Below, one piece after another: positions 7,840 to 24,155 of a stretch of 64,000 nucleotides of DNA (its first letter is position 1; each line of letters begins with the position of its first letter). The DNA comes from Aureimonas pseudogalii (GTDB lineage: Bacteria; Pseudomonadota; Alphaproteobacteria; Rhizobiales; Rhizobiaceae): contig NZ_JACIEK010000007.1 in the NCBI RefSeq assembly GCF_014196835.1, positions 1 through 64,000 of the forward strand, written 5' to 3'. The notes beneath the pieces were generated by a model, which ran no database searches, had not been told where the DNA came from, and was given only the letters and a program-made list of their open reading frames with translations. The translations under genes and the position numbers were made by a program.

Positions 7840-7842
7840 AAC

Positions 7843-8067: not shown

Positions 8068-8334
8068 CGCTTTCTGCTGCGTGGATCAGGAGAGATACCG
8101 CGCGGCGATGCGGCGACCACATGCAATTGGGCAGGCAAGACCGGGTGTGGACGACGGCCCGGCCGCCGAACCCGGGCCGCTCGATCCCGCGGAGGCCGCC
8201 CACGGAGCTCGTCGCATCGGGACCGGTCGAAGCGGGGTCGCCCGTGATGCGAAGCTCTGCGTCGACGCGCTCGCCCCGGAAGCGGAACCATCCCGCCCTC
8301 GTCTCCCTTGCTCGCGAGACCAGCAAGGAGAGCG

Positions 8335-8610
8335 ATGATGGCAGACCGCAACGAGACGACACCCGCAACGGAGAAGCCTCTGGTTCGCGACGACGGATCG
8401 AAGGTCGCGACGGAGGGAAGCCCCTCGGGTGAGACGGAAACCGAGAAGGTTCGGCGCGAGGAGAGCAGGCTCCCCAACCGGGGCGTGTCTCCCGATTACA
8501 CCGACCCCGTCGATGAAGACGGGATCGCCGTCATCGACGAGTCCCCAGCGGGCGAACACGGCGATCCGTCCTTGCCGGGCACTTCAAGGGGAACGACGAC
8601 GATCCGGTAA
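8335..8610 (+). CDS. Small hydrophilic hypothetical protein
   Basis: A 91-residue, strongly hydrophilic and probably disordered protein, rich in Glu, Asp, Thr, Arg and Ser (MMADRNETTPATEKPLV start). A good ribosome-binding site, AAGGAG at 8325-8330, lies four bases before the ATG at 8335 and decides the start. No domain is recognised. The composition is like that of small stress-associated proteins in this group, but that is only an impression. Confidence 0.5.
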   Translation: MMADRNETTPATEKPLVRDDGSKVATEGSPSGETETEKVRREESRLPNRGVSPDYTDPVDEDGIAVIDESPAGEHGDPSLPGTSRGTTTIR

Positions 8611-9053
8611 GCGGCGGCCGATTGACCGATCGAGACATCGGGAACAAGCGCCTCGGCCCCGAAGAGTGAGCCGCCCCACCTCCTGCGGACGCCACGTCAT
8701 GAAAGAAGGACGTCCTTGCCGGGGGAGAACCGGCAAGCACGTCTCGGAAGGGCCAGCGATGGCGGGAAAAATCGTGCCGCCCGCTCACCGCGGTCGCCGA
8801 GAGGACCGGCCGCCGCGAAGTTCTGGAATTCGTCGGCGCACCGATTGGGGGGCGAGGGTCGGAATCTCGGAGCGAGACATGCCGAGATCGGCGACTTCGC
8901 GCGGGGAGGGACAGTTCATCTCGGCGGCCGCGTTGCGATACCGGCACCATCTGGACGGATCGAGCGAGGCTCGTTGAAATCTGCCCTTGTCCGCTATCGG
9001 CGACGCGCATGGCACCCTTAAGGGGATAGCGTAGAGGACACGGCGCCCAAAAC
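8611..9053. other. Long gap without a supportable gene
   Basis: About 440 bases between a small + gene and the minus-strand terminator near 9054. Several overlapping open frames exist on both strands (for example 8716-9021 and 8759-8977), but all are Arg/Pro/Ser-rich and lack good start contexts. Remnants of decayed small genes are possible; no motif supports any of them. Confidence 0.4.
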
Positions 9054-9087
9054 GAAAAAGCCGCCTGGGATCGCTCCCGGCGGCTTC
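9054..9087 (-). terminator. Rho-independent terminator after the diguanylate cyclase gene
   Basis: On the minus strand an 8-bp stem AAGCCGCC/GGCGGCTT, extended by GGGA/TCCC, is followed by TTTTTC. It lies about 140 bases past the stop of the GGDEF gene at 9230. Confidence 0.75.
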
Positions 9088-9229
9088 GCGTCTCTTGCGA
9101 GACCTACGGCCTCTTCGTCTCGGCGCGCCAGTACATCCGTGGTCGGCCGAGGCAGAAGACCTCTGCGTGCATCGATCCATGATCGAGATGCATCGCACTC
9201 GACGTAATTGGGTGGGTCGGGCCGACGTT

Positions 9230-10030
9230 TCAAGATCCAGAGGGAATCGGCAAGGGGAAGACGTTGCCGCCGGCTTCGCGATCCGCGTTGACGCTCCTGT
9301 TTCGCCCCTGGTGCTTGGCCTCGTAGAGCGCCCGGTCCGCTCGCCGGTAGGCGTCCAGCACATCGCCTCTGCCGATATGCGCCAGTCCGATGCTGGCGGT
9401 CACCTTCAGGCCGGGCGGCAGCGGCTCGCCTCCCATGCGGGCGAGATCGCGGCGTAGACGATCCGCCGTTCCGAGGGCGGACTGCGGGTCCAGCCCGTTC
9501 AGCGCGACCGCGAACTCCTCTCCCCCGACGCGGCCGACCAGATGCGTGGCGCCCAGCCCCTGTTGCAGCACGCGTCCCACTTCGGCGATCACGTAGTCGC
9601 CGACGAGATGCCCGTGAGCGTCGTTGATGCGCTTGAAATGGTCGATGTCGAGCACGCCGAGCGTCAGATCGCTGCCGCCCGCCTTCGCCTTGTCGAGAGC
9701 GGCAAAGAACCCGCCACGGTTCATCAGCCCCGTCTGCAGATCGGTATGGGCGAGGGCCTCGAACCGCTCCTTGAGCTGAAACAGCCGGAGGTTCGCGCGG
9801 GCGAGAAACCCGAGAAAGAGCAGCGACATGAAGGCCGCGATGAGGGTGGTCTGGATGAAGGACGGGCAGAGCCGATCCGGCTGGGTGTAGAGGTTGACCA
9901 CCGCGTCGATGCCGTCCGTCACCAGGACGATGCCAAGTGTAGCGGCCACGACCTTCGTCCACATCTCGCGGCGCGTGCGGATCACGCTCAAGGAGCTCAG
10001 GAGGTGCGGCATGGCGGACTTTCGTGACAT
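9230..10030 (-). CDS. Membrane-anchored diguanylate cyclase (GGDEF)
   Basis: A 266-residue protein predicted to make cyclic di-GMP from GTP. Two membrane helices (about 27-46 and 60-78) anchor it, with a short periplasmic loop between them. The GGDEF domain starts at TDLQTGLMNR (about 96) and carries LDIDHFKRIND (about 127-137) and the active-site GGEEF at 169-173, a functional variant. No RxxD inhibitory site is seen five residues before GGEEF, so product feedback through the usual I-site is unlikely. It lies directly downstream of the degenerate EAL gene on the same strand (73-base gap), so the two may be cotranscribed. Confidence 0.9.
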   Translation of the reverse strand: MSRKSAMPHLLSSLSVIRTRREMWTKVVAATLGIVLVTDGIDAVVNLYTQPDRLCPSFIQTTLIAAFMSLLFLGFLARANLRLFQLKERFEALAHTDLQTGLMNRGGFFAALDKAKAGGSDLTLGVLDIDHFKRINDAHGHLVGDYVIAEVGRVLQQGLGATHLVGRVGGEEFAVALNGLDPQSALGTADRLRRDLARMGGEPLPPGLKVTASIGLAHIGRGDVLDAYRRADRALYEAKHQGRNRSVNADREAGGNVFPLPIPSGS

Positions 10031-11903: not shown

Positions 11904-11937
11904 GCTAAAATGGCGGAGAGGCTAAAATGGCGGAGAG
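11904..11937. repeat. Tandem 17-bp repeat at the left attachment site
   Basis: The unit gctaaaatggcggagag occurs twice in direct succession (11904-11920 and 11921-11937). Both units contain the tRNA 3'-end sequence tggcggagag. Only the second continues into the 17-bp match with the right end. Confidence 0.9.
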
Positions 11938-11941
11938 GATG
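11925..11941. repeat. attL core
   Basis: The 17 bases aaatggcggagaggatg are identical to 24063-24079, where they cover the 3' end of tRNA-Ser. This marks the left edge of the integrated element. Confidence 0.85.
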
Positions 11942-12063
11942 AGCACCAGACCAATACTGAAAGCCAATTAAATCAGTCACTTAGATTCATATTGCGTCGC
12001 AATTTGTGTAGCGAATTGTATAGCAAGCAGCGAGTCCCGCCATAGGCTAGTTTGGAATCAAAA

Positions 12064-12092
12064 CGCCGTCCCGAGTGCGAATCGGGACGGCG
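12064..12092 (-). terminator. Perfect 11-bp hairpin near the left end of the element
   Basis: The arms cgccgtcccga (12064-12074) and tcgggacggcg (12082-12092) pair perfectly around a 7-base loop. On the minus strand the stem is followed by TTTT, so it could stop transcription leaving the element towards the host. On the plus strand there is no T-run, so it would be a 5' leader structure for the primase gene. Confidence 0.5.
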
Positions 12093-12125
12093 CAATTTCT
12101 GGATCAAGCAGTGGGCGGACACCCA

Positions 12126-14561
12126 ATGACACAACACATTAACCTCAAAACGGTTCACGCGGCAATTGACCCGCTTGCACTGTATCTATCGGCGTTCGCT
12201 ACGGGGGGTCTTGATACGCTCATGGCGAGCGTCGCGGTAATCTACGACCCGGATATCGAAGCCCTTCTGGGCGGCGGTCCCTCGCCTTTAGATCGCCCCC
12301 TCAATGTGACGTTCTTCCCGAAACAGTCTGCGCAACAGAAGCGCGAGCGGCTGCTTTCGCTTCGTGACCTCGCGTCGATCATCATGGAGACCAACGCCTC
12401 GGGCGACACGGACGAACAAGCGAAGACCGAGCTTCCCTGGTTGAAGCTGGCGCGGTTCGGAAATCGGAAGACGGACAAAGGTGCGCTCAGGTCCAATATG
12501 AACGTAGAGGCCATCTCGGGCGTCGAGATTGACTATGACGGTGGCGAACTATCGATTGAAGACGCTTGCCGTATGCTGGAGGCCGCTCGCGTTTCCGCCC
12601 TCGCGTATGAGACGGCTACAAGCCGGCCAGAGAAGCACAAGTGGCGAGTGCTTTGCCCCCTTTCGCAGGAGTTGCCGGGGTCCGAGCGCGAGCGTTTGGT
12701 CCGCCGCCTCAACGGCTTGTTCGCTGGCAAGATCGACCAAGGGGCGAGCTTCACGCTGTCGCAGGCGTTTTACTACGGCGGCATCCAAGGCCGCCGCCCC
12801 GACGTCGCTTTCGCAGATGGCCGGTTCCTCGACCTCGCCGACGACCTCGACGCGCGAGCTTTGGAGAAGGTTCGTCCGACTTCAACCGGCAAGAGCACGT
12901 CGGGAAAGGTCGACGAACGCGCATTGCTCGACGCGATCACGGCCGGCGAGGACTATCACGGTTCCACCATCACCCTGGCAGGCTATTGGGCGACCAAGGG
13001 CGTTGGATTTGTGGACGCATTCGCGAAGCTCCAGAAGGCTTTTGATGAGGTTCCGAAAGCCCAGCGGGATGGTCGATGGTCGACCCGCCGTGGGGATATC
13101 CAAGGCGTTCTCGCGCACGTCTACGGAAAGGAGTCGGCAAAGGACTTGCCGGAACCGATCGACGTGGACACCGCGTTTGATTCCGAGCCCGAGGGCGAGA
13201 AGACCGTCGCCGGTTTCGCCCTCGACCACGATGGCGTCATCCGAGCCTTCACGAAGCGGTATCGTGGCAAGCTAAAATTCGATCACGACGCCGGCTCGTG
13301 GTTCCGGTTCGACGGTTCGCATTGGCAGGCCGAAAAGACCAAGCTCGCGCATCACTTCGCTCGGAAGACCTCGACCGAGATGGCGCGCGCCAATCCGAAG
13401 GACGGCGCGGTGAAGGCGCTCAAGTCGGTCCCAACCTGGGAGGCTATCGAACGTGGTGCGCGGACGGATCGCAATTTTGCGGTGACGGCGGACACGTGGG
13501 ATTGCGACCTCATGCTCCTGGGTACGCCCGGCGGGACCGTCGATCTTCGCACTGGCGAACTGCGCCCGGCTGATCCCGCCGACCATATCAGCAAGGTCAC
13601 GGCAGTCGCGCCGATCCCGCTGGCCAACTTCGTGCCCGAGCGGGATTGCCCCATGTGGCTCCGCTTTCTCGACCACGCCCTGGCGGGGGACGCGGCCACT
13701 ATCCGGCTCTTGCAGCAATGGGGCGGCTATAGCCTGACGGGTGACACGAAGGAACAGAAGCTCGTCTTCGCTTACGGTCCTGGCGGTGCTGGCAAGGGGA
13801 CGGCCATCAACACCATTGGTGATATCATGGGCGACTATGCCGTGAACGTGCCGATGGAAACCCTCACTGTGTCGAAGCACGACGCGCATCCGACCGAGCT
13901 CGCCCGCCTTCGCGGTGCCCGCATGGCCCGTGCGTCCGAGACCGAGAAGGGGCGCGCATGGGCCGAGAACCGGATCAAGGTGCTGACGGGGCAGGACACC
14001 ATCACCGCGCGGTTCATGCTGAAGGACTTCTTCGAGTTCAAACCGCAGTTCAAGCTTACGATCTTCGGTAACAACGCACCGAGCCTTAAGGATGTGGACG
14101 CGGCGATCCGTCGTCGCTTCATCATCATGCCGTTCAACAACCCGCCGGCCGAACGCGACCTCGACCTTCCAGAGAAGCTGAAAGCCGAGTGGCCGGCTAT
14201 CCTGTCGTGGCTGATCGCTGGTTGCCTCGACTGGAAGGCCAACGAGTTGATCCGGCCTTCCGTCGTTAACGCCGCGACCGAGGCGTACTTCTCGGAACAG
14301 GACGTGTTCGGGCAATGGCTGGAGGAGTGCTGCGAGGTCGGTCCGTCGTTCGTCGCGAAGGCGGACGACCTTTGGCAGTCTTGGCAAGGGTACGCCATGC
14401 GGTTCGGCGAAGACCCCGGAAGCAAGAAGCGGACTTTTCCCGAGCACCTTTCGCAGCGCGGATTTGAGGCTTTGAGGAACACGGCCGGTATCCGGGGGGC
14501 TGGACGGCGGGGGGTTCGGTTGCTTGAGGAGGCGTTCGACGAGGATGACCAGATCGGATAA
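12126..14561 (+). CDS. Phage/satellite primase-helicase (P4/D5 family)
   Basis: About 811 residues from the ATG at 12126. A D-x-D-like motif (EIDYDGG, about 135-141) and the following 150 residues resemble an archaeo-eukaryotic-type primase domain. A D5_N-like linker follows (FDHDAGSWFRFDG, about 385-397). A superfamily 3 helicase domain follows, with Walker A GPGGAGKGT (about 552-560), MARASETEKGR (about 600) and KLTIFGNNAP plus RRRFIIMPF (about 645-670). It should initiate and unwind the element's own replication. A later ATG at 12222 (MASVAVIYDPD) is an alternative start; 12126 is used for its better-spaced ggcgga. The N-terminal peptide PDIEALLGG recurs in the small terminase. It is the first gene of the rightward element block. 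Confidence 0.9.
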   Translation: MTQHINLKTVHAAIDPLALYLSAFATGGLDTLMASVAVIYDPDIEALLGGGPSPLDRPLNVTFFPKQSAQQKRERLLSLRDLASIIMETNASGDTDEQAKTELPWLKLARFGNRKTDKGALRSNMNVEAISGVEIDYDGGELSIEDACRMLEAARVSALAYETATSRPEKHKWRVLCPLSQELPGSERERLVRRLNGLFAGKIDQGASFTLSQAFYYGGIQGRRPDVAFADGRFLDLADDLDARALEKVRPTSTGKSTSGKVDERALLDAITAGEDYHGSTITLAGYWATKGVGFVDAFAKLQKAFDEVPKAQRDGRWSTRRGDIQGVLAHVYGKESAKDLPEPIDVDTAFDSEPEGEKTVAGFALDHDGVIRAFTKRYRGKLKFDHDAGSWFRFDGSHWQAEKTKLAHHFARKTSTEMARANPKDGAVKALKSVPTWEAIERGARTDRNFAVTADTWDCDLMLLGTPGGTVDLRTGELRPADPADHISKVTAVAPIPLANFVPERDCPMWLRFLDHALAGDAATIRLLQQWGGYSLTGDTKEQKLVFAYGPGGAGKGTAINTIGDIMGDYAVNVPMETLTVSKHDAHPTELARLRGARMARASETEKGRAWAENRIKVLTGQDTITARFMLKDFFEFKPQFKLTIFGNNAPSLKDVDAAIRRRFIIMPFNNPPAERDLDLPEKLKAEWPAILSWLIAGCLDWKANELIRPSVVNAATEAYFSEQDVFGQWLEECCEVGPSFVAKADDLWQSWQGYAMRFGEDPGSKKRTFPEHLSQRGFEALRNTAGIRGAGRRGVRLLEEAFDEDDQIG

Positions 14562-14581
14562 CGTGTTGTTTTCGCTCAATG

Positions 14582-14673
14582 TGAGACAAGTGGGAAGACT
14601 GTTCCCGTTACCCCCTATCGCGCGCGGGTGTGTGTGTAAGACCCGAGCGGGAGCACTTGTCCCACTTGTCTCA
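14582..14673. repeat. 14-bp inverted repeat with three gacaagtg copies
   Basis: tgagacaagtggga (14582-14595) and its exact reverse complement (14660-14673) flank 64 bases. The octamer gacaagtg occurs once on the plus strand (14585-14592) and twice on the minus strand (14654-14661 and 14663-14670). It lies between the primase and small-terminase genes, where a replication origin or a packaging site would be expected. Either role is inferred. Confidence 0.6.
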
Positions 14674-14789
14674 ACTCCCGGTCTGACCTTGCTCCCGGGC
14701 CTTCGGGTCCCTCCGGGTGGGGTGCCTACGGGGGGAGCGCGGAGCCGCGTGACGTCCCCCCATGCAGAAAATCAGAATCGAGTAACCCG

Positions 14790-15140
14790 ATGACGCCGAC
14801 GTTTGCGCCTGACATTGAAGCCCTGCTTGGTGGGACGCCGCTGCCGCCCCCTAAAAAGGGACCCAAGCTTACCTTGCGGAAGACGGACGAACTGAACGAC
14901 GCTCGCGCTCGCGCTGCGAACGCAACGGCTGCCAAAGCCGAGATGCAAACCGCCAAACTGGCGGGCGAGCTTCTGGAGGTCGCGGCGGTACGTGCTGCCT
15001 GGACTGATACGGCCCACGCGATCCGTGCCGGGATGCTCGCGATCCCCGGCCGGCTGACCGGCCAAGGCGTAGATGCCGCGACGGTCCGTTTGGTGGACGC
15101 AGAAGTCCGCGCCGCGCTGGAGGCGTTGTCCGATGGCTGA
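14790..15140 (+). CDS. terS: Phage terminase small subunit (Nu1-like)
   Basis: A 116-residue protein immediately before and overlapping the large terminase gene by 8 bases. A long charged helix (DELNDARARAANATAAKAEM, then AKLAGELLEVAAVRAAW) is followed by AIRAGMLAIPGRL and an acidic helix. That is the arrangement of the C-terminal part of lambda Nu1-like small terminases; no clear N-terminal winged helix is present. It should recognise the packaging site and hand the DNA to TerL. The first residues contain PDIEALLGG, also found at the N-terminus of the primase. The start at 14790 is the only ATG giving this peptide; the ribosome-binding site is weak. Confidence 0.75.
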   Translation: MTPTFAPDIEALLGGTPLPPPKKGPKLTLRKTDELNDARARAANATAAKAEMQTAKLAGELLEVAAVRAAWTDTAHAIRAGMLAIPGRLTGQGVDAATVRLVDAEVRAALEALSDG

Positions 15141-16908
15141 CATGCTTGCTGCGCTCCGGCGCGAAGCTCTCCAGGCGCTCCGGCCGCCCCGCAAGCTTGC
15201 CCTTTCGGACTGGTGCGAAGCGAACGTCGTGTTGCCCGCCAGCCTTTCCAGCCAACCGGGCCGGATGCGCCTCTGGCCCCATCAGCGCGCCATCGCCGAC
15301 TCGATCGGCGACCCGACGGTGGAGCGCGTGTCCGTGCTTAAATCCGTCCGCGTCGGCTACTCACAATTGCTGACGGCCGCCATCGGCCACTATGCCGCGA
15401 ATGATCCGGCTTCCGTCCTGGTCGTGTTGCCGGCCGATGCGGACTCGCGAACGATGATGACCTCGAATATCGAGCCCGTCTTCGCCGAATCCCCCGCGCT
15501 CCGGTCCGTCATCTCGACCGATCCGAAGGGCCGCGACATTATGCTGGAGCGCCGCTTCCCCGGTGGCTCCCTCGCGCTTGTGTCCGCACGCTCGCCCCGC
15601 AACCTTCGAGGCCGGACGGCGCGCGTGCTGTTCCTCGACGAAGTGGATGCTTTCGAGGTTGACGTGAAGGGCGAGGGCGACCCGGTGATGCTCGCCGAAC
15701 GCCGTACCCTGTCCTACGGCGACCGCAAGATTGTCATGGGCTCGACGCCCGTAGACGAGGCTACGTCCCGCATCTGCCGCGCCTACGCCGCGAGCGACGG
15801 CCGGGTCTATGAGGTCCCGTGCCCGTCGTGCGGCACGTTCACGGAACTGACGTGGCGCATGATCGAATGGGAGGCCGACAAGCCTGCGACCGCCGCTTTC
15901 CGATGCCCGCATTGCGACGACCTCGTGCCCGAGACCGAGAAGCCGCGCATGGTGGCGGGCGGTCACTGGCGCGCGACCCGTCCCGAGGTCGTCGGGCACC
16001 ACGGCTACCGCTTGAATGCGCTCGTCTCGCTCCTGCCGAACGCGGCTTGGGGGAAGCTCGCCGCCGAGTTCGTGGTCGCAAAGCGCAGCCCGGAAACCCT
16101 CAAGACGTTCGTCAACACGCTCCTGGGCGAGCCCTGGCGTGACGAGGGCGACGAGATCGACAGTGGGGCGTTGGCGAGCCGTGCCGAGCCGTTCGGGCTC
16201 GACGCCATTCCCGCCGAGGTCCTGGTCGTGACCGCTGGGCTCGACGTGCAAGACGACCGGGTGGAGATCACGACGGCGGGCTGGACGAAGGACGGCGACG
16301 CGCTCGTGCTCGCCCATGAGGTTGTGTGGGGTTCACCGCTGCGAGACGACACCTGGGCGGAAGTGGACGACCTCCTACGCCGCTCCTGGCGGCATCCTGG
16401 CGGCGGCCTGCTTCGGGTAGACGCGGCGATCGTGGACTCGGGCTCTGGCGGGCACACCGATGCGGTCTATGGGTTCTGCAAGCCCCGCACAGGCCGGCGC
16501 GTATTCGCGGGCAAGGGCGTCGCAGGATTCAGCCGCAAGGCCGTCGAGCCGAGCAAGGCGCGTGACATTCGGTTGATGCTGGTGGGCGTGGACGCAATCA
16601 AGAATGAACTGGTGAACCGCCTTGCGGCCGGCCGCACCATCCGCTTCGCCGGCGACCTCACTGAAACTTGGTTCGAACAGTTGGCCGGCGAGCGTCGGAT
16701 CGTGCGTCATGTGCGCGGTCATCCGGTCCGAGCTTTCGAGCGTATTCCGGGCCGGCGGGTGGAGGCCCTGGATTGCCTCGTCTACGCCTTTGCCGCGCGA
16801 CGGCTCGTATCGCTCGACTTGGAGCGGCGGGAAGAGGAGATAGCGACACCCATCCTGCCATCCCGCAGGCCGTCCGTGGTGCGTTCGGCATGGCTGGAGG
16901 GGCGATGA
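15133..16908 (+). CDS. terL: Phage terminase large subunit (GpA family)
   Basis: A 591-residue packaging motor and nuclease of the lambda GpA family. SDWCEANVVLP (about 25-35) and LWPHQRAIADSI open the ATPase domain. SVLKSVRVGYSQLL (about 72-85) is the ATP-binding strand and loop, and VLFLDEVDAFE (about 170-180) is Walker B. A zinc-binding segment CPSC...CPHC lies at about 233-262. The nuclease half shows VTAGLDVQDDRVEI (about 370-383) and VDSGSGGHTDAVYGFC (about 435-450). The start MADMLAALRREAL at 15133 overlaps the terS stop (ATGGCTGA), indicating coupled translation. Presence of an intact TerL means the element can package its own genome. Confidence 0.95.
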   Translation: MADMLAALRREALQALRPPRKLALSDWCEANVVLPASLSSQPGRMRLWPHQRAIADSIGDPTVERVSVLKSVRVGYSQLLTAAIGHYAANDPASVLVVLPADADSRTMMTSNIEPVFAESPALRSVISTDPKGRDIMLERRFPGGSLALVSARSPRNLRGRTARVLFLDEVDAFEVDVKGEGDPVMLAERRTLSYGDRKIVMGSTPVDEATSRICRAYAASDGRVYEVPCPSCGTFTELTWRMIEWEADKPATAAFRCPHCDDLVPETEKPRMVAGGHWRATRPEVVGHHGYRLNALVSLLPNAAWGKLAAEFVVAKRSPETLKTFVNTLLGEPWRDEGDEIDSGALASRAEPFGLDAIPAEVLVVTAGLDVQDDRVEITTAGWTKDGDALVLAHEVVWGSPLRDDTWAEVDDLLRRSWRHPGGGLLRVDAAIVDSGSGGHTDAVYGFCKPRTGRRVFAGKGVAGFSRKAVEPSKARDIRLMLVGVDAIKNELVNRLAAGRTIRFAGDLTETWFEQLAGERRIVRHVRGHPVRAFERIPGRRVEALDCLVYAFAARRLVSLDLERREEEIATPILPSRRPSVVRSAWLEGR

Positions 16909-16956
16909 TACCCTCCAGCAACGGTCGCGCTCTGGCGGGGCTCCTACGCAGTCCGT

Positions 16957-17178
16957 CTAGTCGGACTTGCCGCGCTCCATCTCTAAAGAAGCCAGAGCAA
17001 GAATCGTTTCGAGAAGATGCCAGTTGAATTTACTGTTATCACTCGCTGCTAGTCGAACCTGCGAAATGCAATTATCCATATCGCGCGTTCTTACTAAATC
17101 GTCGATGATAGCGATACCTGCCGCCCGTCCGTTTTCTTCTGCTTCGCGAAGGAGGTCGCTCAATTTACTTAGTCCCAA
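16957..17178 (-). CDS. Small reverse-strand protein within the head module
   Basis: A 73-residue acidic, helical protein (LSDLLREAEENGRAAGIAII near the start, ending LASLEMERGKSD). It lies in an AT-rich pocket between TerL and portal, on the strand opposite to the head genes. The frame opens with TTG and no clear ribosome-binding site, so the start is uncertain. Composition is unlike a shadow ORF, because its codons sit in low-GC DNA. It could be a regulator or a cargo (moron) gene; no family is recognised. Confidence 0.45.
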   Translation of the reverse strand: MGLSKLSDLLREAEENGRAAGIAIIDDLVRTRDMDNCISQVRLAASDNSKFNWHLLETILALASLEMERGKSD

Positions 17179-17279
17179 TTGTTTTCACGGCCTATCCGCA
17201 AACCCGGATTCAGAGTGCAAAACGCTAAACGCCGGAGCAAGTGTCCCGGCGCTAAAACTCTCGCGTCTGTGGTTATTGG

Positions 17280-17510
17280 TTAACCGCCGACCGGGCTGAA
17301 CGGATTCGTGATCGTGCGATCCGACGTTCGGCCGTCCCACAGCCACGCGGTCATATCCGCCGGCACCATGAGGTTGCGACTGCGCATCTCGGCTCGCACG
17401 AGCTTGAGCGTCAGGGAAATGGGCCAGCCAAGCGCGACGCCTTCATGAAGCATCTGCTGTCCATCGTACTTCATCTGCGCAAGCGCGGCGAGGTTCTCGC
17501 TGGGCGACAT
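17280..17510 (-). CDS. Small reverse-strand element protein, function unknown
   Basis: A 76-residue protein beginning MSPSENLAALAQMKYDGQQM and containing a short predicted helix pair followed by a Pro/Thr-rich tail. The ribosome-binding site AGGAG lies five bases before the ATG at 17510 and decides the start over the longer frame. It reads away from the next gene (17735), with the dyad at 17654-17705 between them. A divergent, operator-bearing position is typical of a small regulator, but no helix-turn-helix is obvious. Confidence 0.55.
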   Translation of the reverse strand: MSPSENLAALAQMKYDGQQMLHEGVALGWPISLTLKLVRAEMRSRNLMVPADMTAWLWDGRTSDRTITNPFSPVGG

Positions 17511-17653
17511 GACGACTCCTGGTGCTTGTTTTGGAAGAGAAGCCCCGGCGGCGGCCGAGGACGAGTCAAACCGCCGCCGAGGCTGTTCGGGGGCGTTCGT
17601 CAATCCCCGGATGCCCGGCACGAACTCTGGAAGAAAGAGCCGGACGCACGGCA

Positions 17654-17705
17654 TATGCCACGTATGGACTCGCGTGTCTAGACTCACGGTTTAGGACGTG
17701 GCATA
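17654..17705. promoter_or_regulatory. Nested dyad, candidate operator between divergent element genes
   Basis: Outer arms tatgccacgt (17654-17663) and acgtggcata (17696-17705) are perfect inverted copies whose centres are 42 bp apart, about four helical turns. Exactly at the midpoint (17679.5) lies the palindrome gtctagac (17676-17683). The shared centre makes chance unlikely. It lies between the minus gene ending its 5' side at 17510 and the plus gene at 17735. Confidence 0.55.
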
Positions 17706-17734
17706 GGGGGCCTCTACTCTGGATCGAGGACGCT

Positions 17735-18328
17735 ATGCCTTTTACCCTAACCGAAGCCGCCGCGATCATCGCCCGCCTCTACCAACGGCCGGCCGACGAT
17801 ATCCTGGGGCTTGCCCGGCGCTTGAAGAACTTCGAGGCTCGCGGGCGTATCGAGGCCCTACCCGAGCGGGGCCCGCGTGATGCGGCACTTTTGGATGAGT
17901 CCGAACTGCCCCTGTGCGTCGTGCTTTCCGCAGCCTGTGACGCGGGCTTCGACGGTGACGCGCTGCGCGCTATCGAGAACGCCTGCTACCATCCGTTCGA
18001 TTGGACTTTCACGACGCTTCGCCCCGATCGCCTCAAGCAAAACGGCGTGTTTGTCTTCCATGGGGGGTCGGCCCTCGAAACCGCCTACGATGGCGTCTTG
18101 TGTGACGAGCCGTGGGTGTTGCGCCTCGTGCTGATGCGCGATGAGTGCGGTCGGCCGATGGTTGAAGCCCGAATTGAGCCCGATGAGGGGGAGGCCGCCG
18201 TGGCCGTTCGGGTCCTGACGGCTCGTCTGGCGAGTGAAGGTCGCACGCTTGAGGCCATCACTCGAATGCCCCTCAACACGATGCTCTTAGGTCTCGCCTA
18301 CGAGATTCGGGCTTCCCAGGAGGCTTGA
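17735..18328 (+). CDS. Element protein of unknown function
   Basis: A 197-residue soluble protein. The N-terminus (TLTEAAAIIARLYQRPADDI, then LGLARRLKNFEARGRI) has helical spacing that could be a MerR- or RepB-like DNA-binding segment, but this is weak. The middle holds FVFHGGSALETAYDG and the end is rich in Arg, Glu and Leu. The ATG at 17735 follows GAGGA by six bases. It ends five bases before the portal gene and is probably cotranscribed with it. No family is recognised with confidence; its position between terminase and portal suggests a regulatory or assembly role special to this element. Confidence 0.6.
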   Translation: MPFTLTEAAAIIARLYQRPADDILGLARRLKNFEARGRIEALPERGPRDAALLDESELPLCVVLSAACDAGFDGDALRAIENACYHPFDWTFTTLRPDRLKQNGVFVFHGGSALETAYDGVLCDEPWVLRLVLMRDECGRPMVEARIEPDEGEAAVAVRVLTARLASEGRTLEAITRMPLNTMLLGLAYEIRASQEA

Positions 18329-18332
18329 TCCG

Positions 18333-19748
18333 ATGCCCGTCCGCCTCCCGTCTTTCCTGGGCTTCCTCAACCGCGCCGATCGTCGTGGTGCTGTTCGTCG
18401 CTTCGAGGCGGCGGGCGGTGGACGGCGTTGGGGCGGCACACCGCACTTCGGGCGGACCTCGACGGAAGTGGCGGCGGCAACGGCAACGGTCCGCTCCCGA
18501 GCGCGCCATGCCGCCGCGAACCATCCCTATATCGCAAACGGCGTCGCGGCTCTTGTGACTGGCCTCGTGGGAACAGGGATCACACCGACTTCGCAGCACG
18601 CCGACGCCGACACACGCGACCGTCTCGCTACGCTGTTTGACGCCTGGAACGCAGACGCCGACCATGATGAGCGCACGGACGGCTACGGCCTCCAGGCGGC
18701 GGCCATGCAAGCCATGGTCGTGGATGGCGAGGCCTTCGTGCTCATGCGTCACGGGGACGACGACCGTCTCAAGCTGCAATTGCTGCCGGCCGAACTCTGC
18801 GACGAGTCCCTGACCCGCACCACTGCGCACGGCTACATCGTCAACGGCGTCGAGTTCGATGCGGAGGGCCGGCGCATCGCCTATTGGCTGCTGCCGCACC
18901 GACCGACCGACGCCTTCGCCGGCAACGCGGCCCCCGCCCAGCGCGTCGCGGCCGAAGACGTGATCCATCTGTTTCGCCCGCTCGGCGCGGGACAGGTGCG
19001 CGGCCTCTCATGGCTTGCCCCCGTGTTGCTCACTGCCTCCGAGTTCGACAAGCTCGCCGACGCACTGGTGATGAACGCGCAAGTCCAGGCCATGTTTGTT
19101 GGTCTGGTGACCGACGTGAATGGGACCGCCGGCGGGAGCATGTTCGACGGCGACCAAGCGGGCAACGTGCTGGAGACCGGCCTACAACCGGGCACCCTGC
19201 AATTCCTCCCCTCTGGCTATGACGTGCGCTGGAGCACGCCACAGGCTGCCAACCAAGCCGTCGAGACGGCCCGGCTGACCCTGGAGGCCATCGCTGCCGG
19301 GCTGGGCGTGCCGGCGCACCTTCTGTCGGGCGACCTCCGGCAGGCGAACTATTCGTCCCTTCGCGCGGCGCTCGTCAGCTTTCGGCAACGCCTGGAGGCC
19401 GTCCAGTTCCACACGATCATCCCCCAGCTATGCCGTCCCGTGTGGGAACGGTTCGTTTCGACCGCCGTGCTGTTGGACGACCTCGACCTGGACGACCCCC
19501 GCGAGGGCTTCGCCTGCGAATGGCTGCCGCCAGCCCAGCCGTGGGTGGACCCGGTGAAGGATGCGCAGGCCACCCGCGAAATGATGGCGGCCGGCCTCAT
19601 GTCGCGGCGGCAGGCCGTGGCCGCGCTGGGGTACTCCATCGAGCGGCTGGACGCCGAGATCGCGGCCGACCGCGCGCGTGAAGCCCGACTCGGTCTCACC
19701 TTCGCCGCGCCGGCCGGACCTACCAACCCCGAGGAGCCCGCCGAATGA
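18333..19748 (+). CDS. Phage portal protein (lambda family)
   Basis: A 471-residue portal protein that would form the dodecameric DNA entry ring of the capsid. Family features are the early RSRARHAAANHPYIANGVAA segment (about 55-75), VVDGEAFVL (about 129-137), AEDVIHLFRP followed by RGLSWLAP (about 207-230), and GVPAHLLSGDLRQANYSSLR (about 328-347), the most conserved part. The C-terminus PVKDAQATREMMAAGLMSRR is typical of lambda gpB-type portals. AGGAGG lies nine bases before the ATG. The stop overlaps the next gene (ATGA). Confidence 0.93.
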   Translation: MPVRLPSFLGFLNRADRRGAVRRFEAAGGGRRWGGTPHFGRTSTEVAAATATVRSRARHAAANHPYIANGVAALVTGLVGTGITPTSQHADADTRDRLATLFDAWNADADHDERTDGYGLQAAAMQAMVVDGEAFVLMRHGDDDRLKLQLLPAELCDESLTRTTAHGYIVNGVEFDAEGRRIAYWLLPHRPTDAFAGNAAPAQRVAAEDVIHLFRPLGAGQVRGLSWLAPVLLTASEFDKLADALVMNAQVQAMFVGLVTDVNGTAGGSMFDGDQAGNVLETGLQPGTLQFLPSGYDVRWSTPQAANQAVETARLTLEAIAAGLGVPAHLLSGDLRQANYSSLRAALVSFRQRLEAVQFHTIIPQLCRPVWERFVSTAVLLDDLDLDDPREGFACEWLPPAQPWVDPVKDAQATREMMAAGLMSRRQAVAALGYSIERLDAEIAADRAREARLGLTFAAPAGPTNPEEPAE

Positions 19749-21634
19749 GCCAAGGCCCACGCCCACGAAAGCACGAACGCGCGCAAAACGCTCCCACGCC
19801 CCGCCGCAAGCGGGACAACGTGACGATCGAGGACGGCGCGATCACCGACCGCTCGATGGAGGCCGCGCCCATGTTGCGGCGCTCGGCGGTCGCCTTGGGT
19901 GAGTTCGACGCGAAGGGCTACTTCATCCGAGCCCTTGTCGCCACGGACCATCCGGTGCGCCGGCAGGACGCGCGGGGCATGTTCCTGGAGGTCCTGGACC
20001 CGGCCGGCGCGGTGCTGACCGACGACCTCGACGTGCCGTTCCTGGACGCTCACAACCAACGATCCGCGCGCGCCACCATCGGCCGTGCCTACGACTTCGC
20101 CCGCGAGCCGGACGGCATCGCCGCCTCGCTCCGATTCTCGCTCGCCGCCGATGTAACGCCTCTCGTAGAGCGCGTGAAGGACGGCAGCTTGCGGGCTTTC
20201 TCCATCGGCTATCGCGTCCTTGAGTGGCGCGAGTCGAAGTCGGCGACGGGCGAGCGCGTCCGCACCGCAACCCGCTGGACGGTCCAGGAAGTCTCCCTCG
20301 TGCCGATCCCGGCCGACCCCAACGCCCGCAAAAGGAATGCTGCAATGGACGAAGAACTCGACACCCTCGACGTGATGCCGGAGGCGGACCAGAACGCCAT
20401 CCGTGCCATCGGCGAGAACCTGGACCTCCCGCCCAGCGCGGCCGAAGAACAGATCACGGCCGGCGCGAGCGTCGCCGATGCTCGCCTCGCGCTGCGCACC
20501 CGTGCGCTGGAGGGGATGCGGGCGCGGTCAGCCTCGACGCATATCCGCATCCAGAACGCCGGTCCGTCCCCAGACGAGACCCGTGCGGCCCGTGTGGAGG
20601 CTCTGGCCTGCCGCATGAACGGTGCGACACCCAGCGACGCCGCTCGCCCGTTCATGGGCCTGCGTCTCCTCGACCACGCTTCGGACTCGCTCGCCGCCGC
20701 CGGAATCTCGACGCGCGGCATGGCCGCCGACGACGTGTTCGTGCGCGCTGGCACCCACACCACGAGCGACTTCCCGATCCTGGTCTCCAACGCAATGGGG
20801 AAGGTCGCGCAGGAAGCCTACAAGGCTGCCGAGTCCCCACTGCGCCTCCTGTGCAAGCAGCGCAACCTCTCCAACTTCAAGACCTCGACGGCGGTGCGGC
20901 TGGGCGAGCTTGGCCGGCTGGAGCCGCTGTCGGAGTCGGGCGAGTTCCGGCACACGACCCGCGCCGAGAACGGCGAGACCATGAGCCTGGAGACCTACGG
21001 CCGCGCCATCAACGTGAGCCGCAAGCTCCTGATTGACGACGACCTCAACTTGCTGGGCGACATGAACGCCGCCTTCGGCGAGGCCGCCGCGCAGACGGAA
21101 GCCGACATTCTCTTCGAAACGGTGACGAGCAACCCGAAGCTGTCGGACGCCAAGACCGTGTTTCACGCCACGCGCGGGAACATCGGAATCGTGTCGACAG
21201 CCTCCGGGGGCAACCCGTCCATCAGTGTGGCCGCGCTGAACGAGGCTCGCCGCGCCATGCGGGGCCGCAAGGGCCTGGACGGGCGGACTCTCATTTCGGC
21301 GACTCCGAAGTACCTCCTGGTCGGGCCGGAGCGGGAGACGGAAGCCGAAGCAATGCTCGCCGAACTGTCGGCCTCGACCATCGCCGAAGTGAACCCGTTC
21401 GCCGGCAAGCTCCAGCTTCTCGTGGAGCCCCGTATCGAGGATGGCCGCTGGTACGTCTTCGCGGACCCGGCTCGCCTGCCGTGCCTCCAGTTCGGCTACC
21501 TCGCGTCGGCCCCCGGCGTCCAGATTCAGCGTGCGGAAGCCTGGGACGTGTTGGGCGCGAAGTTCCGCGCTTGGCTCGACTTCGGGGCTGCCTGGCTTGA
21601 TTGGCGCGGCGCGCAACTCAACGCGGGGGCCTGA
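19745..21634 (+). CDS. Prohead protease fused to major capsid protein (HK97 type)
   Basis: A 629-residue fusion. Residues about 30-200 are an HK97-type prohead protease: VPFLDAHNQRS (about 98-108) carries the catalytic His and AFSIGYRV (about 155-162) the catalytic Ser. After a linker, residues about 290-629 are the major capsid protein: SDFPILVSNAMGK, FKTSTAVRLGELG, LETYGRAINVSRKLLIDDDL and a C-terminal P-domain-like end. The region from 200 to 290 is likely the scaffold (delta) segment removed on maturation. An internal in-frame ATG at 20345, preceded by AAAGGA, could make the capsid part separately. With portal, TerL and TerS it completes a self-sufficient head. Confidence 0.9.
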   Translation: MSQGPRPRKHERAQNAPTPRRKRDNVTIEDGAITDRSMEAAPMLRRSAVALGEFDAKGYFIRALVATDHPVRRQDARGMFLEVLDPAGAVLTDDLDVPFLDAHNQRSARATIGRAYDFAREPDGIAASLRFSLAADVTPLVERVKDGSLRAFSIGYRVLEWRESKSATGERVRTATRWTVQEVSLVPIPADPNARKRNAAMDEELDTLDVMPEADQNAIRAIGENLDLPPSAAEEQITAGASVADARLALRTRALEGMRARSASTHIRIQNAGPSPDETRAARVEALACRMNGATPSDAARPFMGLRLLDHASDSLAAAGISTRGMAADDVFVRAGTHTTSDFPILVSNAMGKVAQEAYKAAESPLRLLCKQRNLSNFKTSTAVRLGELGRLEPLSESGEFRHTTRAENGETMSLETYGRAINVSRKLLIDDDLNLLGDMNAAFGEAAAQTEADILFETVTSNPKLSDAKTVFHATRGNIGIVSTASGGNPSISVAALNEARRAMRGRKGLDGRTLISATPKYLLVGPERETEAEAMLAELSASTIAEVNPFAGKLQLLVEPRIEDGRWYVFADPARLPCLQFGYLASAPGVQIQRAEAWDVLGAKFRAWLDFGAAWLDWRGAQLNAGA

Positions 21635-21636
21635 CG

Positions 21637-21852
21637 GTGGCAACCCTCGCCGATCTTGCGCGCTGGAGGGACGAGCTTATCGAAGCCCGTCTTTCCGGCG
21701 TTCGGGAGGTCCAGGACCAGAACAACGAGCGTATCCGCTATGGGACCGACGCCGAGATGGCGGCAGCCATCCGGGCCGCCGACCGCATGATCGCCGACGC
21801 TTCCCGCCGGCCGGCCTCCACCATTCGCTTCGCAACCTCGAAAGGTCTCTGA
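21637..21852 (+). CDS. gpW-like head-completion protein
   Basis: A 71-residue protein starting at GTG, two bases after the capsid stop. The pattern LADLARWRDELIEARLSGVR, then RIRYGTDAEMAAAIRAADRM, matches the two-helix gpW-type fold that plugs the portal after DNA packaging and offers the tail-docking surface. Length fits (lambda gpW is 68 residues). In a tailless satellite this would be the interface for tails supplied by a helper phage. The assignment is by pattern and position. Confidence 0.65.
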   Translation: MATLADLARWRDELIEARLSGVREVQDQNNERIRYGTDAEMAAAIRAADRMIADASRRPASTIRFATSKGL

Positions 21853-21853
21853 C

Positions 21854-22027
21854 ATGACGCAGACTCACTACGTCGCCGTCCGCCCCATCGTCGTGGCGAT
21901 CGGCGACACTCTGGTGGATGCCTTGCCGGGCGACGTGTTCCCGGCTTCCGCCCTGACCGAGGACGACGCCGACGACTACCTCTGGGCCGGCTGGATCAAG
22001 CCCGCCCCCAACCAGAAAAGGCATTGA
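21854..22027 (+). CDS. Small element protein (57 residues)
   Basis: A 57-residue acidic protein reading MTQTHYVAVRPIVVAIGDTL then PGDVFPASALTEDDADDYLW and ending with a basic tail. It starts one base after the gpW-like stop and ends three bases before the DUF2190 gene, so it is packed in the head operon. Similar short proteins accompany head genes in other phages. Function is unknown. Confidence 0.6.
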   Translation: MTQTHYVAVRPIVVAIGDTLVDALPGDVFPASALTEDDADDYLWAGWIKPAPNQKRH

Positions 22028-22030
22028 GCC

Positions 22031-22363
22031 ATGAAGAACTACGTCCAGAAGGGCGAGAACATCACCGTTCCCGCACCCGCCGTCGTCCTGTCCGGCGCTC
22101 CCGTGCTGATTGGCAAACTGTTCGGCATTGCGGCTGGCGACGCGCTGCAGGGCGAGCCCCTCGACCTCGTGACGACCGGCGTCTTCACCCTGCCGAAGGT
22201 CTCCACGCAGCCCCTCGCGATCGGGGACAAACTTTACTTCGACACTGCCGCCGGCCTCGTCACGACGACGGCCAGCGGCAATAGCTACATCGGCGTCGCC
22301 GTGAAGCCGGCCGCCAACCCGTCTGGCGCGGCGGAAGTCCGCCTCAACGGCTTCGTCGCCTAG
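22031..22363 (+). CDS. DUF2190 capsid decoration (cement) protein
   Basis: A 110-residue protein with the DUF2190 pattern: NYVQKGENITVPAPA at the start, VLIGKLFGIA, then GDKLYFDTAAGLVTTTASG and IGVAVKPA towards the end. Beta-rich and without a signal peptide. Members of this family sit next to capsid genes and stabilise capsids, as lambda gpD does. AAGG lies upstream of the ATG, and the gap to the previous gene is only three bases. Confidence 0.8.
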   Translation: MKNYVQKGENITVPAPAVVLSGAPVLIGKLFGIAAGDALQGEPLDLVTTGVFTLPKVSTQPLAIGDKLYFDTAAGLVTTTASGNSYIGVAVKPAANPSGAAEVRLNGFVA

Positions 22364-22420
22364 CCCATCCCGGTAACAATGCAGCACGGACCAAAGGAGT
22401 CCCGACATTGAGGACACCCC

Positions 22421-22657
22421 ATGTCTTTGGTCGTGGACCGACGCACTTGCATCCAGCGGTTCGACACAGCCTCCAGTGCGCCTCTCACGTTCCACGAACT
22501 CCAGACGATGCGATCTGCGGTCGCTGGCCTGATCGCCAGCGACCCGACCTATCTCCCGATTTTCGAGCGCCTGGACGCCTTGGCCGCTGCGCACGAAGCA
22601 TCCGACCCCGTCGCCCGAGCCCGCGCGCTGGTCGCCGCTCAAAAGGCGATGGCCTGA
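22421..22657 (+). CDS. Small protein at the end of the head operon
   Basis: A 78-residue protein (MSLVVDRRTCIQRFDTASSA start), helical in its second half (DPTYLPIFERLDALAAAHEA). GAGGA lies seven bases before the ATG. It ends 19 bases inside the convergent integrase gene. In ordinary phages this slot holds tail or head-tail connector genes; here it is the last rightward gene. Function is unknown. Confidence 0.55.
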   Translation: MSLVVDRRTCIQRFDTASSAPLTFHELQTMRSAVAGLIASDPTYLPIFERLDALAAAHEASDPVARARALVAAQKAMA

Positions 22658-23916
22658 ATCACTTTCTGCTTGTGCTCCAGAGTTGCACCCTTTCCGTACC
22701 GCTCCCTGTTCAGCGTGTGGCCGAAAAGGTCGCGCCGGATGCGCTCGTCAACGCCGGCCGCGAGGAGGCGATCCTCAAACGAATGCCGAAGGCTGTAGAG
22801 CACATGCGCGGGCGACTCCATGAGACCGTTTTCCCGCAAGAACTTGTTCACCGTGTCGGATACCTTGTCCTTGAAACGGTAGGTCGGGAAGCCCTTCGGG
22901 CACTCTCTCATCGCCTCCAGGCTCACCCCGACGAGCGGCATGACGCGACGCGACGAAGCGTTCTTCAACTGCCGGCCATCCGCTTCGATCGAGATATGCG
23001 GAACGGCATGGCCGAGTCGGATATGCTCGGGCATGAGCCCGGCAAGCTCGCTGGGTCGGCATCCTGTATTCACCATCGCCAGGAGGAGGCATCGCGCTTC
23101 CAGATTGAGCCCGTCGAGCGCGCCGGGGGCGAGAAGCCGCGTCTTGATCCACTTATCGGAGAAAGGCGGTCGCTCGGCTTTCTCGCCTTCCTTGAACATG
23201 AGGTCGGACAGCGGCAGGGCGAGCCCGAGGCGCTTGAGCTTGTTCACCGTCTTCCATGTGTCGGCGAGATGGGTGAAATCCTTATTGGCGCTGCCGGGCG
23301 TCAGCCCTTCCTTCGCGAGTCGCTTGCTCCACCATCCGCGAAAATCGATCATGTCGTCGGCGGTGATGGCGGCAAGCTCCCTGTCGCCGACCACCTTCAC
23401 GAAGTTGTCGGTCGCCTTGATCCGGGGATTCCTCCAACGGCGGATTTGATCCTCGCTCTTGCCGATGGTGCGATCGGCGGCGAGGTCCCAAAACAATTCG
23501 AGCGCGCGGCTGACGGTGATGCCCGGCACGGTCGCGCCGCCAAGGACTGCTCGCGCCTCCAGCAAGTCGACCTTGCCGTTCGGCTTCATCACCGTGCGCA
23601 CGCGCTCCAGGAACTCGGCTTCGGGCAGCTTGGCGACCTGGGCGACCGGGAGGTAGCGGAAGCCGCGACGATCGGCGAGTTGCCGCGCTGCCTCGAATCG
23701 GCGTTCGGCGTCTTCCGTGTCACCCGCCAGTCGAGCTTCCCACGCCTCCACCATCTGCGACCACGAGGCTTCGGCCTTCTGGCGAGCATGGGATTCGGAG
23801 TCGGTGCGGAGGCTGATCCAGATCACCTTCCGCTCCTCGACGCGTGCGAACCGCTCGGGGACGCGACGGCGGAGATGGAAAGTGTCCCCGCGCCGTACAA
23901 GCCTCACTACCTTCAT
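22639..23916 (-). CDS. int: Tyrosine recombinase/integrase of the element
   Basis: A 425-residue phage-type integrase. The N-terminal part (RLVRRGDTFHLRRRVPERF) is an arm-binding or DUF6538-like domain. The catalytic domain shows the first Arg in NTGCRPSELAGL (about 305), Lys in the beta-hairpin near KNASSRRVMPL, the RH pair in YSLRHSFEDRL (about 385), and the nucleophile Tyr in GHTLNRERYGKG (about 407). It begins about 150 bases from the tRNA-Ser gene, as expected for an enzyme recombining at that site. The start is uncertain: Met at 23916 (MKVVRL) is chosen; 23925 or 23985 are possible. No excisionase gene was identified. Confidence 0.93.
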   Translation of the reverse strand: MKVVRLVRRGDTFHLRRRVPERFARVEERKVIWISLRTDSESHARQKAEASWSQMVEAWEARLAGDTEDAERRFEAARQLADRRGFRYLPVAQVAKLPEAEFLERVRTVMKPNGKVDLLEARAVLGGATVPGITVSRALELFWDLAADRTIGKSEDQIRRWRNPRIKATDNFVKVVGDRELAAITADDMIDFRGWWSKRLAKEGLTPGSANKDFTHLADTWKTVNKLKRLGLALPLSDLMFKEGEKAERPPFSDKWIKTRLLAPGALDGLNLEARCLLLAMVNTGCRPSELAGLMPEHIRLGHAVPHISIEADGRQLKNASSRRVMPLVGVSLEAMRECPKGFPTYRFKDKVSDTVNKFLRENGLMESPAHVLYSLRHSFEDRLLAAGVDERIRRDLFGHTLNRERYGKGATLEHKQKVIQAIAF

Positions 23917-24062
23917 CGCGACCATCCACATGCGCTTGCTTGTGCAGCACTCTGTGACGCGAAATGTGCAGCAAAACCAGCCCATCTGCGGCGTAGGCGC
24001 GCCGAGGAGCAGCAGTTTTACGCCATGAATACAGCGGGTTATGGCAAATTAACTATGCTGTC

Positions 24063-24079
24063 AAATGGCGGAGAGGATG
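24063..24079. repeat. attR core
   Basis: The 17 bases aaatggcggagaggatg are identical to 11925-11941. They cover the discriminator, CCA end and acceptor stem of tRNA-Ser, leaving the tRNA intact after integration. Confidence 0.85.
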
Positions 24080-24155
24080 GGATTCGAACCCACGATACCC
24101 TCTCGGGTATACTCCCTTAGCAGGGGAGCGCCTTCGACCACTCGGCCACCTCTCC
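24066..24155 (-). tRNA. tRNA-Ser (anticodon GCU)
   Basis: A 90-base serine tRNA on the minus strand with a long variable arm. The acceptor stem GGAGAGG pairs with CCTCTCC, followed by G and an encoded CCA. The anticodon loop is CTGCTAA within the stem CTCCC/GGGAG, reading codons AGC and AGU. The T-loop is GGTTCGAATCC. Its 3' end is the attachment site of the satellite-like element. Confidence 0.97.

Follow-up and report, generated by a model that had tools for sequence, protein, structure and literature searches.

How does an integrated, phage-like element move between cells when it encodes a head and no recognised tail? The question is raised by a 64,000-nucleotide stretch of Aureimonas pseudogalii DNA (contig NZ_JACIEK010000007.1, positions 1 to 64,000; called the window here), in which a 12,138-bp unit occupies 11925-24079, measured from the start of one bounding repeat to the start of the other. 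Attachment (att) repeats with an integrase, intact and selected genes for replication, packaging and the head, recurrence across orders, and the absence of any recognised tail or lysis gene are all seen in the sequence. With a probability of about 0.82, the unit is read as an integrated tailless phage satellite that would make its own head and need the tail and lysis functions of a helper, most likely travelling by borrowing the tails of other phages. It looks like part of a separate alphaproteobacterial lineage of capsid-forming satellites, distinct from the capsid-forming phage-inducible chromosomal islands (cf-PICIs). No description of this family was found in the open-access literature that was searched.

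The element, its insertion site and its genes

The element is bounded by an exact 17-bp direct repeat, AAATGGCGGAGAGGATG, whose inner copy forms the 3' end of an intact minus-strand tRNA-Ser(GCT). From the outer repeat, the genes run in the order D5-type primase, terminase small subunit (TerS), gpA-type terminase large subunit (TerL), a small minus-strand gene, a gene for 197 amino acids (aa) and a lambda-type portal. The second half holds an S78 protease-capsid fusion, a gpW/Ad1-type adaptor, a 57-aa gene, cement, a 78-aa gene and a minus-strand tyrosine integrase adjoining the tRNA. All of these are open frames with no internal stop.

11925-11941: outer att copy AAATGGCGGAGAGGATG (exact 17-bp match to 24063-24079)
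12126-14561, plus strand: D5-type primase/helicase, replication (D5_N 9.5e-25, DUF5906 4.9e-10)
14790-15140, plus strand: TerS (phrog_57 2.5e-14)
15133-16908, plus strand: TerL, lambda gpA family (gpA ATPase 4.9e-75, gpA nuclease 5.1e-80)
17280-17510, minus strand: 76-aa accessory protein, no family assigned (74% identical in locus L054)
17735-18328, plus strand: orf197, a predicted MerR-like regulator, hypervariable (predicted fold; no Pfam match)
18333-19748, plus strand: portal protein, lambda family (PF05136 6.5e-83)
19745-21634, plus strand: prohead protease-major capsid fusion (S78 5.9e-7, Phage_capsid_4 (PF25209) 2.2e-44, phrog_4523 1.6e-139)
21637-21852, plus strand: gpW/Ad1-type head-completion adaptor, behind the capsid gene (phrog_2545 2.9e-10)
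21854-22027, plus strand: 57-aa protein, no family assigned, between the adaptor and cement genes (present also in L054 and L134)
22031-22363, plus strand: capsid cement/decoration protein, DUF2190/Phage_cement_2 (PF09956 8.3e-28)
22421-22657, plus strand: 78-aa protein, no family assigned (the slot holds a MerR/AlpA-like excisionase-profile protein in some relatives)
22639-23985, or with the start at 23931, minus strand: tyrosine integrase (DUF6538 and Phage_integrase; profile match)
24063-24079: att copy at the tRNA-Ser 3' end (repeat match and tRNA call)
24066-24155, minus strand: tRNA-Ser(GCT), the integration target, still intact (ARAGORN)

Lysis families gave no match among the element proteins scanned by profile. 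For tail families, ten scanned proteins gave a single label, a match of the integrase to a tail-fibre-assembly profile at E 0.16; it is taken as chance. No HNH endonuclease family was found among the element proteins scanned, and the PF05065 capsid family was not listed for the element at E up to 1. The first-pass annotation had described 17-bp repeats in a tRNA 3' end, open frames with no obvious decay, no tail or lysis gene, and genes for an integrase, primase, TerS, TerL, portal, protease-capsid fusion, gpW-like protein and DUF2190. The exact repeat copies, the intact tRNA and the uninterrupted frames agree with it, every named gene is matched by profile, and nothing beyond that integrase label speaks for a tail. 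Its feature list left out the regulator-like gene at 17735-18328 and the cos-like site that starts at 14705.

Relatives are bounded in the same way. Fifty GTDB loci have a minus-strand tRNA downstream and sufficient left flank. In these, the tRNA 3' region was compared with DNA 6.5-15.5 kb away, and the longest exact match reached at least 14 bp in 44/50 loci versus 0/143 control segments, for which the longest match was 13 bp. The tRNA targets at these 50 loci are of 13 kinds. The att-to-att size is 10.3-13.2 kb in 43 of the 44 loci (mean 11.93, standard deviation 0.71) and 7.4 kb in the remaining one. Packaging of a unit running from one cohesive-end (cos) site to the next into a single head size would enforce so narrow a range. 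At the outer boundary of the window's element, a direct tandem copy of GCTAAAATGGCGGAGAG precedes the att half (11904-11937), possibly a scar left by previous integration or loss.

Recurrence of the tailless unit

When the capsid was searched for in 397 genomes of the order, 78 matched, the window's own included, and 39 loci with flanks were analysed (19 of the stronger matches and 20 others, not all matches). Under rules that define a satellite as a tailless unit with an integrase and/or a tRNA close by, these loci comprise 25 satellites, 9 tailed prophages and 5 unclassed loci. When GTDB contigs were scanned with the capsid, at least 355 relatives were confirmed. The best 80 comprise 68 satellites, 12 unclassed loci (some cut by contig ends) and no tailed locus; several order-sample loci, such as L036 and L075, recur among them. 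All 80 are labelled as alphaproteobacterial (Rhodobacterales, Hyphomicrobiales, Sphingomonadales and others). A phylum sample of 398 genomes gave portal matches in 55, and 20 loci were taken from it. The 18 from outside Alphaproteobacteria are tailed in 16 cases and unclassed in 2, with no satellite. The remaining two, which alone were drawn from the class of the window, are both satellites. Since the tailless unit recurs at tRNA genes, the element is neither decay nor a single deletion. Such recurrence in other genomes had been proposed for checking by the first-pass annotation and is borne out by 25/39 order-sample and 68/80 GTDB loci; the outcomes that it named as telling against it (homologues that all carry tails, tail genes in the unit, no second genome) were not found.

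The search for tails used 62 proteins called within the tail regions of five phages that have tails and related heads (F10, LPPA33, RcKvothe, Psul1 and yong2). Against 99 loci (L033-L051 and L054-L133) the set gave one match, a tape-measure homologue in L122 (7234-9432), and against 80 IMG/VR loci also one, in L210. As a positive control, prophages L224, L225, L227, L228, L231 and L233 gave many matches, and the tails of some tailed prophages (L230, L232 and L234) were barely seen by this set. A further family search covered 146 proteins. They are the cluster representatives, each at least 80 aa long, of 303 proteins without a label from the element intervals of the GTDB set of 80 loci, with host flank taken in where no boundary was found. 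Excisionase (phrog_66) was matched in 5/146 and MerR_1 in 5/146. Among the matches listed, which are the first 25 of 199 families from PHROGs, 149 from Pfam and 189 from PADLOC, there were excisionase/MerR proteins, methylases, transposases, one tape-measure protein and host genes. Because these family matches are listed only in part, the tail check for relatives rests mainly on the 62-protein search. Some of the 146 proteins, in the cargo slots of L054-L133, match PADLOC methyltransferase, restriction and mads models among the matches listed; defence cargo may be present in part of the relatives' loci, though the 146 also include genes of the host flank.

Close copies lie in distant hosts. 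Those of Rhodovulum bhavnagarense (L067) and Sinirhodobacter ferrireducens (L068) share 95.6% identity over 9.4 kb, and the match ends at the tRNA. The Rhodovulum (Rhodobacterales) and Acuticoccus (Hyphomicrobiales) copies share 90.4% over 8.6 kb in two blocks. Judged by these identities, the unit is spread across orders among alphaproteobacteria. Self-closing contigs were found for 2 of 88 loci checked, not all of which are whole contigs: L073 (12,094 bp, 45-bp overlap) and L211 (11,498 bp, 127-bp overlap). No integrase was recognised in either, and L073, from Falsigemmobacter faecalis, has a RepL-family replication protein (PF05732, 24.6 bits against a cut-off of 20.3). For these reasons plasmid-like members probably exist, and L073 is a possible satellite-plasmid. 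Another plasmid, RHOAph of Rhodovastum atsumiense (L053, NZ_OW485609, 10,690 bp), has ParA, a toxin-antitoxin, a DUF3987 protein and a related protease-capsid fusion, and is a possible phage-plasmid or satellite-plasmid. A near-identity search in plasmids gave no match.

Putative cos site and other DNA signals

A conserved motif stands upstream of terS in the window and in relatives.

14705-14748, plus strand: putative cos site, with GGGTCCCTCC at 14705 and, 25 nt on, GGGGGGAGCGCGGAGCCGC at 14730-14748 (motif conserved before terS)

The layout upstream of terS is GGGTCC(C/T) and, about 25 nt on, a G-rich half with an AGCC/ACCC-type end. GGGTCCY was found before terS in 60/65 regions versus 12.8 expected, and the long form of the motif in 47/65 versus 1.3 expected, where the expectations come from shuffles that keep base composition only. 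GGGTCCYT precedes terS in 53/62 cases and portal in 0/74. Over both strands of the whole window, GGGTCCYTCC has a single occurrence, at 14705. In the tailed phages F10 and yong2, GGGTCCTYCC lies just inside the right end of the linear records. The first 12 nt of the yong2 record equal its last 12 nt, and the F10 record has the 12-mer GGTAATTCGAGC one base in from each end. Because of this position at the record ends, and of end repeats as expected for cohesive ends, the motif is read as cos, with the record ends of F10 and yong2 presumed to be the physical ends.

Three further signals are candidates from folding and repeat searches.

12064-12092: 11-bp perfect inverted repeat (hairpin) between att and primase, a candidate terminator or replication signal (folded as DNA, z -3.96 versus shuffles)
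14582-14673: 26-nt inverted repeat, 85% complementary, 3' of the primase gene, a candidate origin (repeat search)
17654-17705: inverted repeat TATGCCACGT / ACGTGGCATA upstream of orf197, a candidate operator (repeat search)

The repeat before orf197 is perfect over 10 bp and ends about 30 bp upstream of the gene.

Lineage, gene order and selection

In a quick maximum-likelihood tree of the portal, 45 satellites are split from 15 tailed phages and prophages by one branch (approximate likelihood ratio test, SH-aLRT, 100). In the trees, the places of the tailed rows are unsure because of their long branches. The tree labels precede the formal classing, and L223, a satellite in the trees if included, was later unclassed.

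The position of gpW also separates the two groups. It lies between TerL and portal in the tailed phages, in 4/5 by annotation and in the fifth by position and size (the counterpart in LPPA33 is an unnamed 67-aa protein). In satellites it follows the capsid and not the terminase. Since the rule-based classing used gpW before the portal as a criterion for tailed loci, the counts were repeated on tail matches alone. A gpW behind the portal/capsid was found in 99 loci without tail matches, in 1 with one match and in none with two or more. Of the 20 loci with at least two tail matches, a class into which the five phages were put by hand, 10 have gpW before the portal, none has it behind, and in the other 10 it was not detected. 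Among loci without tail-set matches, gpW lies before the portal in 9, some of which are tailed prophages with tails outside the 62-protein set, and was not found in 6. The 3 loci with one tail match have it before the portal, behind and not at all, once each. Because gpW is relocated in satellites, tail loss alone would not explain them, and the satellites appear to be one lineage and not many deletions.

The ratio of nonsynonymous to synonymous change (dN/dS) was obtained by a counting method for the window versus Aureimonas sp. AU4 (L054) and a related IMG/VR copy (L134). It is 0.09-0.11 for TerL, 0.07-0.09 for portal, 0.08-0.12 for TerS and 0.17-0.20 for capsid. For gpW it is 0.26, and for integrase, compared with L054 only, 0.10; constraint is weaker on the cement protein (0.41-0.50). 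On these ratios, the packaging genes are judged to be under purifying selection. The primase is 80% identical in L134 (dN/dS 0.19) versus 29% in L054, and the window-type integrase is present in L054 and not in L134, which indicates that the replication and integration modules are swapped.

Regulator-like gene and candidate helpers

The gene orf197 lies directly before the portal, and relatives were detected by profile in 44/65 loci with a full left flank. Its identity to the L054 and L134 copies is only 30%, compared with 90-91% for the portal next to it. Its predicted structure (mean confidence, pLDDT, 91.7) best matches the fold of CvkR (7xn2), a MerR-type regulator, with a probability of 1.00, E 2e-3 and template-modelling (TM) scores of 0.51/0.65. 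The next matches are other MerR proteins with weaker E values, and a viral structure library gave partial matches only. The product of orf197 is likeliest a fast-changing repressor that would set which helper induces the element.

A helper prophage in the same genome had been suggested for checking by the first-pass annotation, and a prophage with baseplate genes is indeed present on contig C1 (L239 and L243; about 757-785 kb). It has a head protease, a major head protein and three baseplate proteins, is probably contractile-tailed, and carries distant relatives of the element's TerL (3.5e-35) and portal (7.3e-12). The same genome holds an RcGTA-like tail cluster (L241, C1:399000-418999) in which four neighbours, one of them a TIM-barrel protein, match RcKvothe tail proteins. 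Either the prophage or this cluster could be the tail source. Near a contig end elsewhere in the genome (L052, C6:1-16000), a further capsid relative, a distant one (34%), is accompanied by terS and a tyrosine integrase; this is possibly another satellite.

Proposed life cycle and alternative explanations

An active helper phage would relieve the MerR-like regulator, upon which the element would excise and replicate from its own primase. Its terminase would then cut units of about 12 kb from cos to cos, and the DNA would fill a small head of the element's own capsid, closed by the gpW-type adaptor. The helper would give the tail and lysis, and probably also the last neck or stopper protein, for which no gene was recognised in the element.

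Several observations weigh against this reading. No empty site was found in same-genus genomes through right-flank CorA homologues or the left flank: in six such genomes the 6.5-13.5 kb taken around the CorA homologues held no tRNA, and in 20 relatives nothing matched the left flank of 303 bp. The two self-closing contigs may be plasmid-like relatives rather than excised forms. An AlpA-type excisionase and an Stl-type repressor are features of PICIs and cf-PICIs, and neither an excisionase nor a CI/Stl-like repressor was found by profile in the window's element; the MerR assignment of orf197 comes from one fold match at E 2e-3, with none at 1e-3 or below. In the resident prophage stretches, nothing at E up to 1 matches the gpW, cement or TerS of the element, so the C1 prophage is only a candidate helper. 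The cos-like motif was found in 3 of 9 other regions of the tailed set (2.1 expected; long form 3 versus 0.4), and is thus not general to tailed relatives. Labels change four times in the TerL tree (tailed L230 lies within satellites and satellite L051 beside the resident prophage) and twice in the capsid tree, which indicates exchange of modules. The locus counts favour satellites and are not unbiased prevalences, because the query was a satellite capsid. Finally, there is the tape-measure homologue of the GTDB locus L122, the satellite-class L229 has another (7444-9348) between the head genes and the integrase, and the satellite-class L237 has one weak tail-set match. With such tape-measure-like proteins in otherwise tailless loci (L229 and L122), a satellite could alter the length of borrowed tails.

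Other explanations fare worse. An intact tailed prophage was rejected, as no tail or lysis gene was matched within the att-bounded unit. A decaying remnant of a siphophage or myophage, with tail, lysis and control genes deleted, would fit the existence of tailed phages with homologous heads and of a tailed host prophage with related TerL and portal (3.5e-35 and 7.3e-12). However, gene order and size are kept in many species at 13 kinds of tRNA (50 loci), satellite portals form one clade apart from tailed phages, gpW is placed differently than in tailed relatives and the genes are under purifying selection. A remnant is therefore rejected on recurrence, portal clade, gene order and selection, and is very unlikely. 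Gene transfer agents (GTAs) have tail genes and no att-bounded mobile unit, and the att repeats, integrase, cross-order copies and absence of a tail match led to the rejection of a GTA as the identity of the element itself.

It is likewise highly improbable that the element's heads package DNA and take their tails from a chromosomal RcGTA-like agent and not from a phage. The cluster L241 in the host genome agrees with this, as does the presence of GTA_TIM in 20/24 genomes holding the 25 order-sample satellites (24 counted by eye) versus 265/397 overall, but the excess is small, with kinship uncorrected. Genomes G023, G145, G223 and G311 hold satellites and gave no GTA_TIM match, so GTA tails are rejected as an obligate rule. 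An autonomous tailless virus, or a domesticated head such as a protein compartment, would need no tail at all, and a complete head set with no tail gene and no known helper is what it predicts. The retained gpW-type adaptor, cos-like site, terminase and integrase point instead to DNA packaging and tail joining, and we know of no HK97-fold double-stranded DNA phage that infects without a tail, which leaves this explanation little credence.

The preferred reading, a satellite that makes its own head and borrows a tail, can be extended to a class-wide lineage in which the cf-PICI lifestyle evolved independently from a lambda-type (gpA/gpW) module. Such a lineage would have cos-ended genomes fixed at about 12 kb, a neck gene moved to a new place, rapidly diverging MerR-like switches that determine the helper, episomal and integrated forms, promiscuous, order-crossing tail capture and possibly GTA tails. 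This wider proposal is tentative and, taken as a whole, rather doubtful. If the reading is true, an own head with a stolen tail has at least two separate origins, in different phage head modules, and satellites of this kind are carried by a whole bacterial class, whose genera include soil, marine and plant-associated ones. Searches based on the gene families of cf-PICIs could then overlook them. The cross-order pair at about 90% identity suggests wide head-tail mixing and bears on the DNA reach of phage satellites. Moreover, the family offers a defined test set: its genomes are of about 12 kb, a cos site and a switch protein are predicted, and a candidate helper lies in the same genome.

Comparison with known systems

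The cf-PICIs are described with a PF05065 major capsid protein (PMC13230959), with an HNH endonuclease beside the packaging genes, and with their own TerS, TerL, portal, protease, capsid and head-tail connector (PMC10690885). The average size is 14 kb for cf-PICIs and 10 kb for P4-like satellites (PMC10803314), and PMC13230959 names an Stl-like regulator. The window's element resembles cf-PICIs in its integration, similar size, own terminase, portal, protease, capsid and connector, and lack of tail genes; cf-PICIs depend on helper tails, and the element would share this dependence. In contrast, its capsid is a Phage_capsid_4 protein fused to an S78 protease and not PF05065, no HNH match was found, and it has a gpA terminase with a cos-like site, a lambda portal, gpW after the capsid, a D5 primase and a MerR-like regulator. 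Its family was seen only in alphaproteobacteria among the loci examined. The first-pass annotation had called the locus an alphaproteobacterial counterpart carrying exactly the cf-PICI head and packaging set. The element looks able to work like a cf-PICI, but the exact match of gene sets does not hold (no PF05065 and no HNH; a lambda-type gpA terminase, PF05136 portal and gpW), and the Phage_capsid_4/S78 fusion and the missing HNH match make it an analogue from another head lineage.

The cf-PISP satellite-plasmids of Vibrio are also tailless and head-encoding, and the window's family has a circular, plasmid-like member with RepL (L073). Their capsids cluster with those of gammaproteobacterial cf-PICIs (PMC13230959), whereas the capsids of the window's family belong to another protein family, and the copy in the window is integrated.

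P4-like satellites share a D5-type primase, an integrase and small size with the element. They target tRNA genes, have no capsid genes of their own and remodel the helper capsid. Unlike P4, which takes both capsid and tail from its helper, the window's element has a full head set. The Mulch and Flayer satellites of Streptomyces phages encode encapsidation machinery as well (PMC10690885), and the element is set apart from them by its primase and integrase.

The tailed phages F10, LPPA33, RcKvothe, Psul1 and yong2 have in common with the element TerS, TerL, a gpW/adaptor, the portal, the protease-capsid fusion and a decoration protein, and F10 and yong2 also share the cos-like motif, at their record ends. 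In contrast to the element, all five carry tails and have gpW, or in LPPA33 the unnamed 67-aa protein, between TerL and portal.

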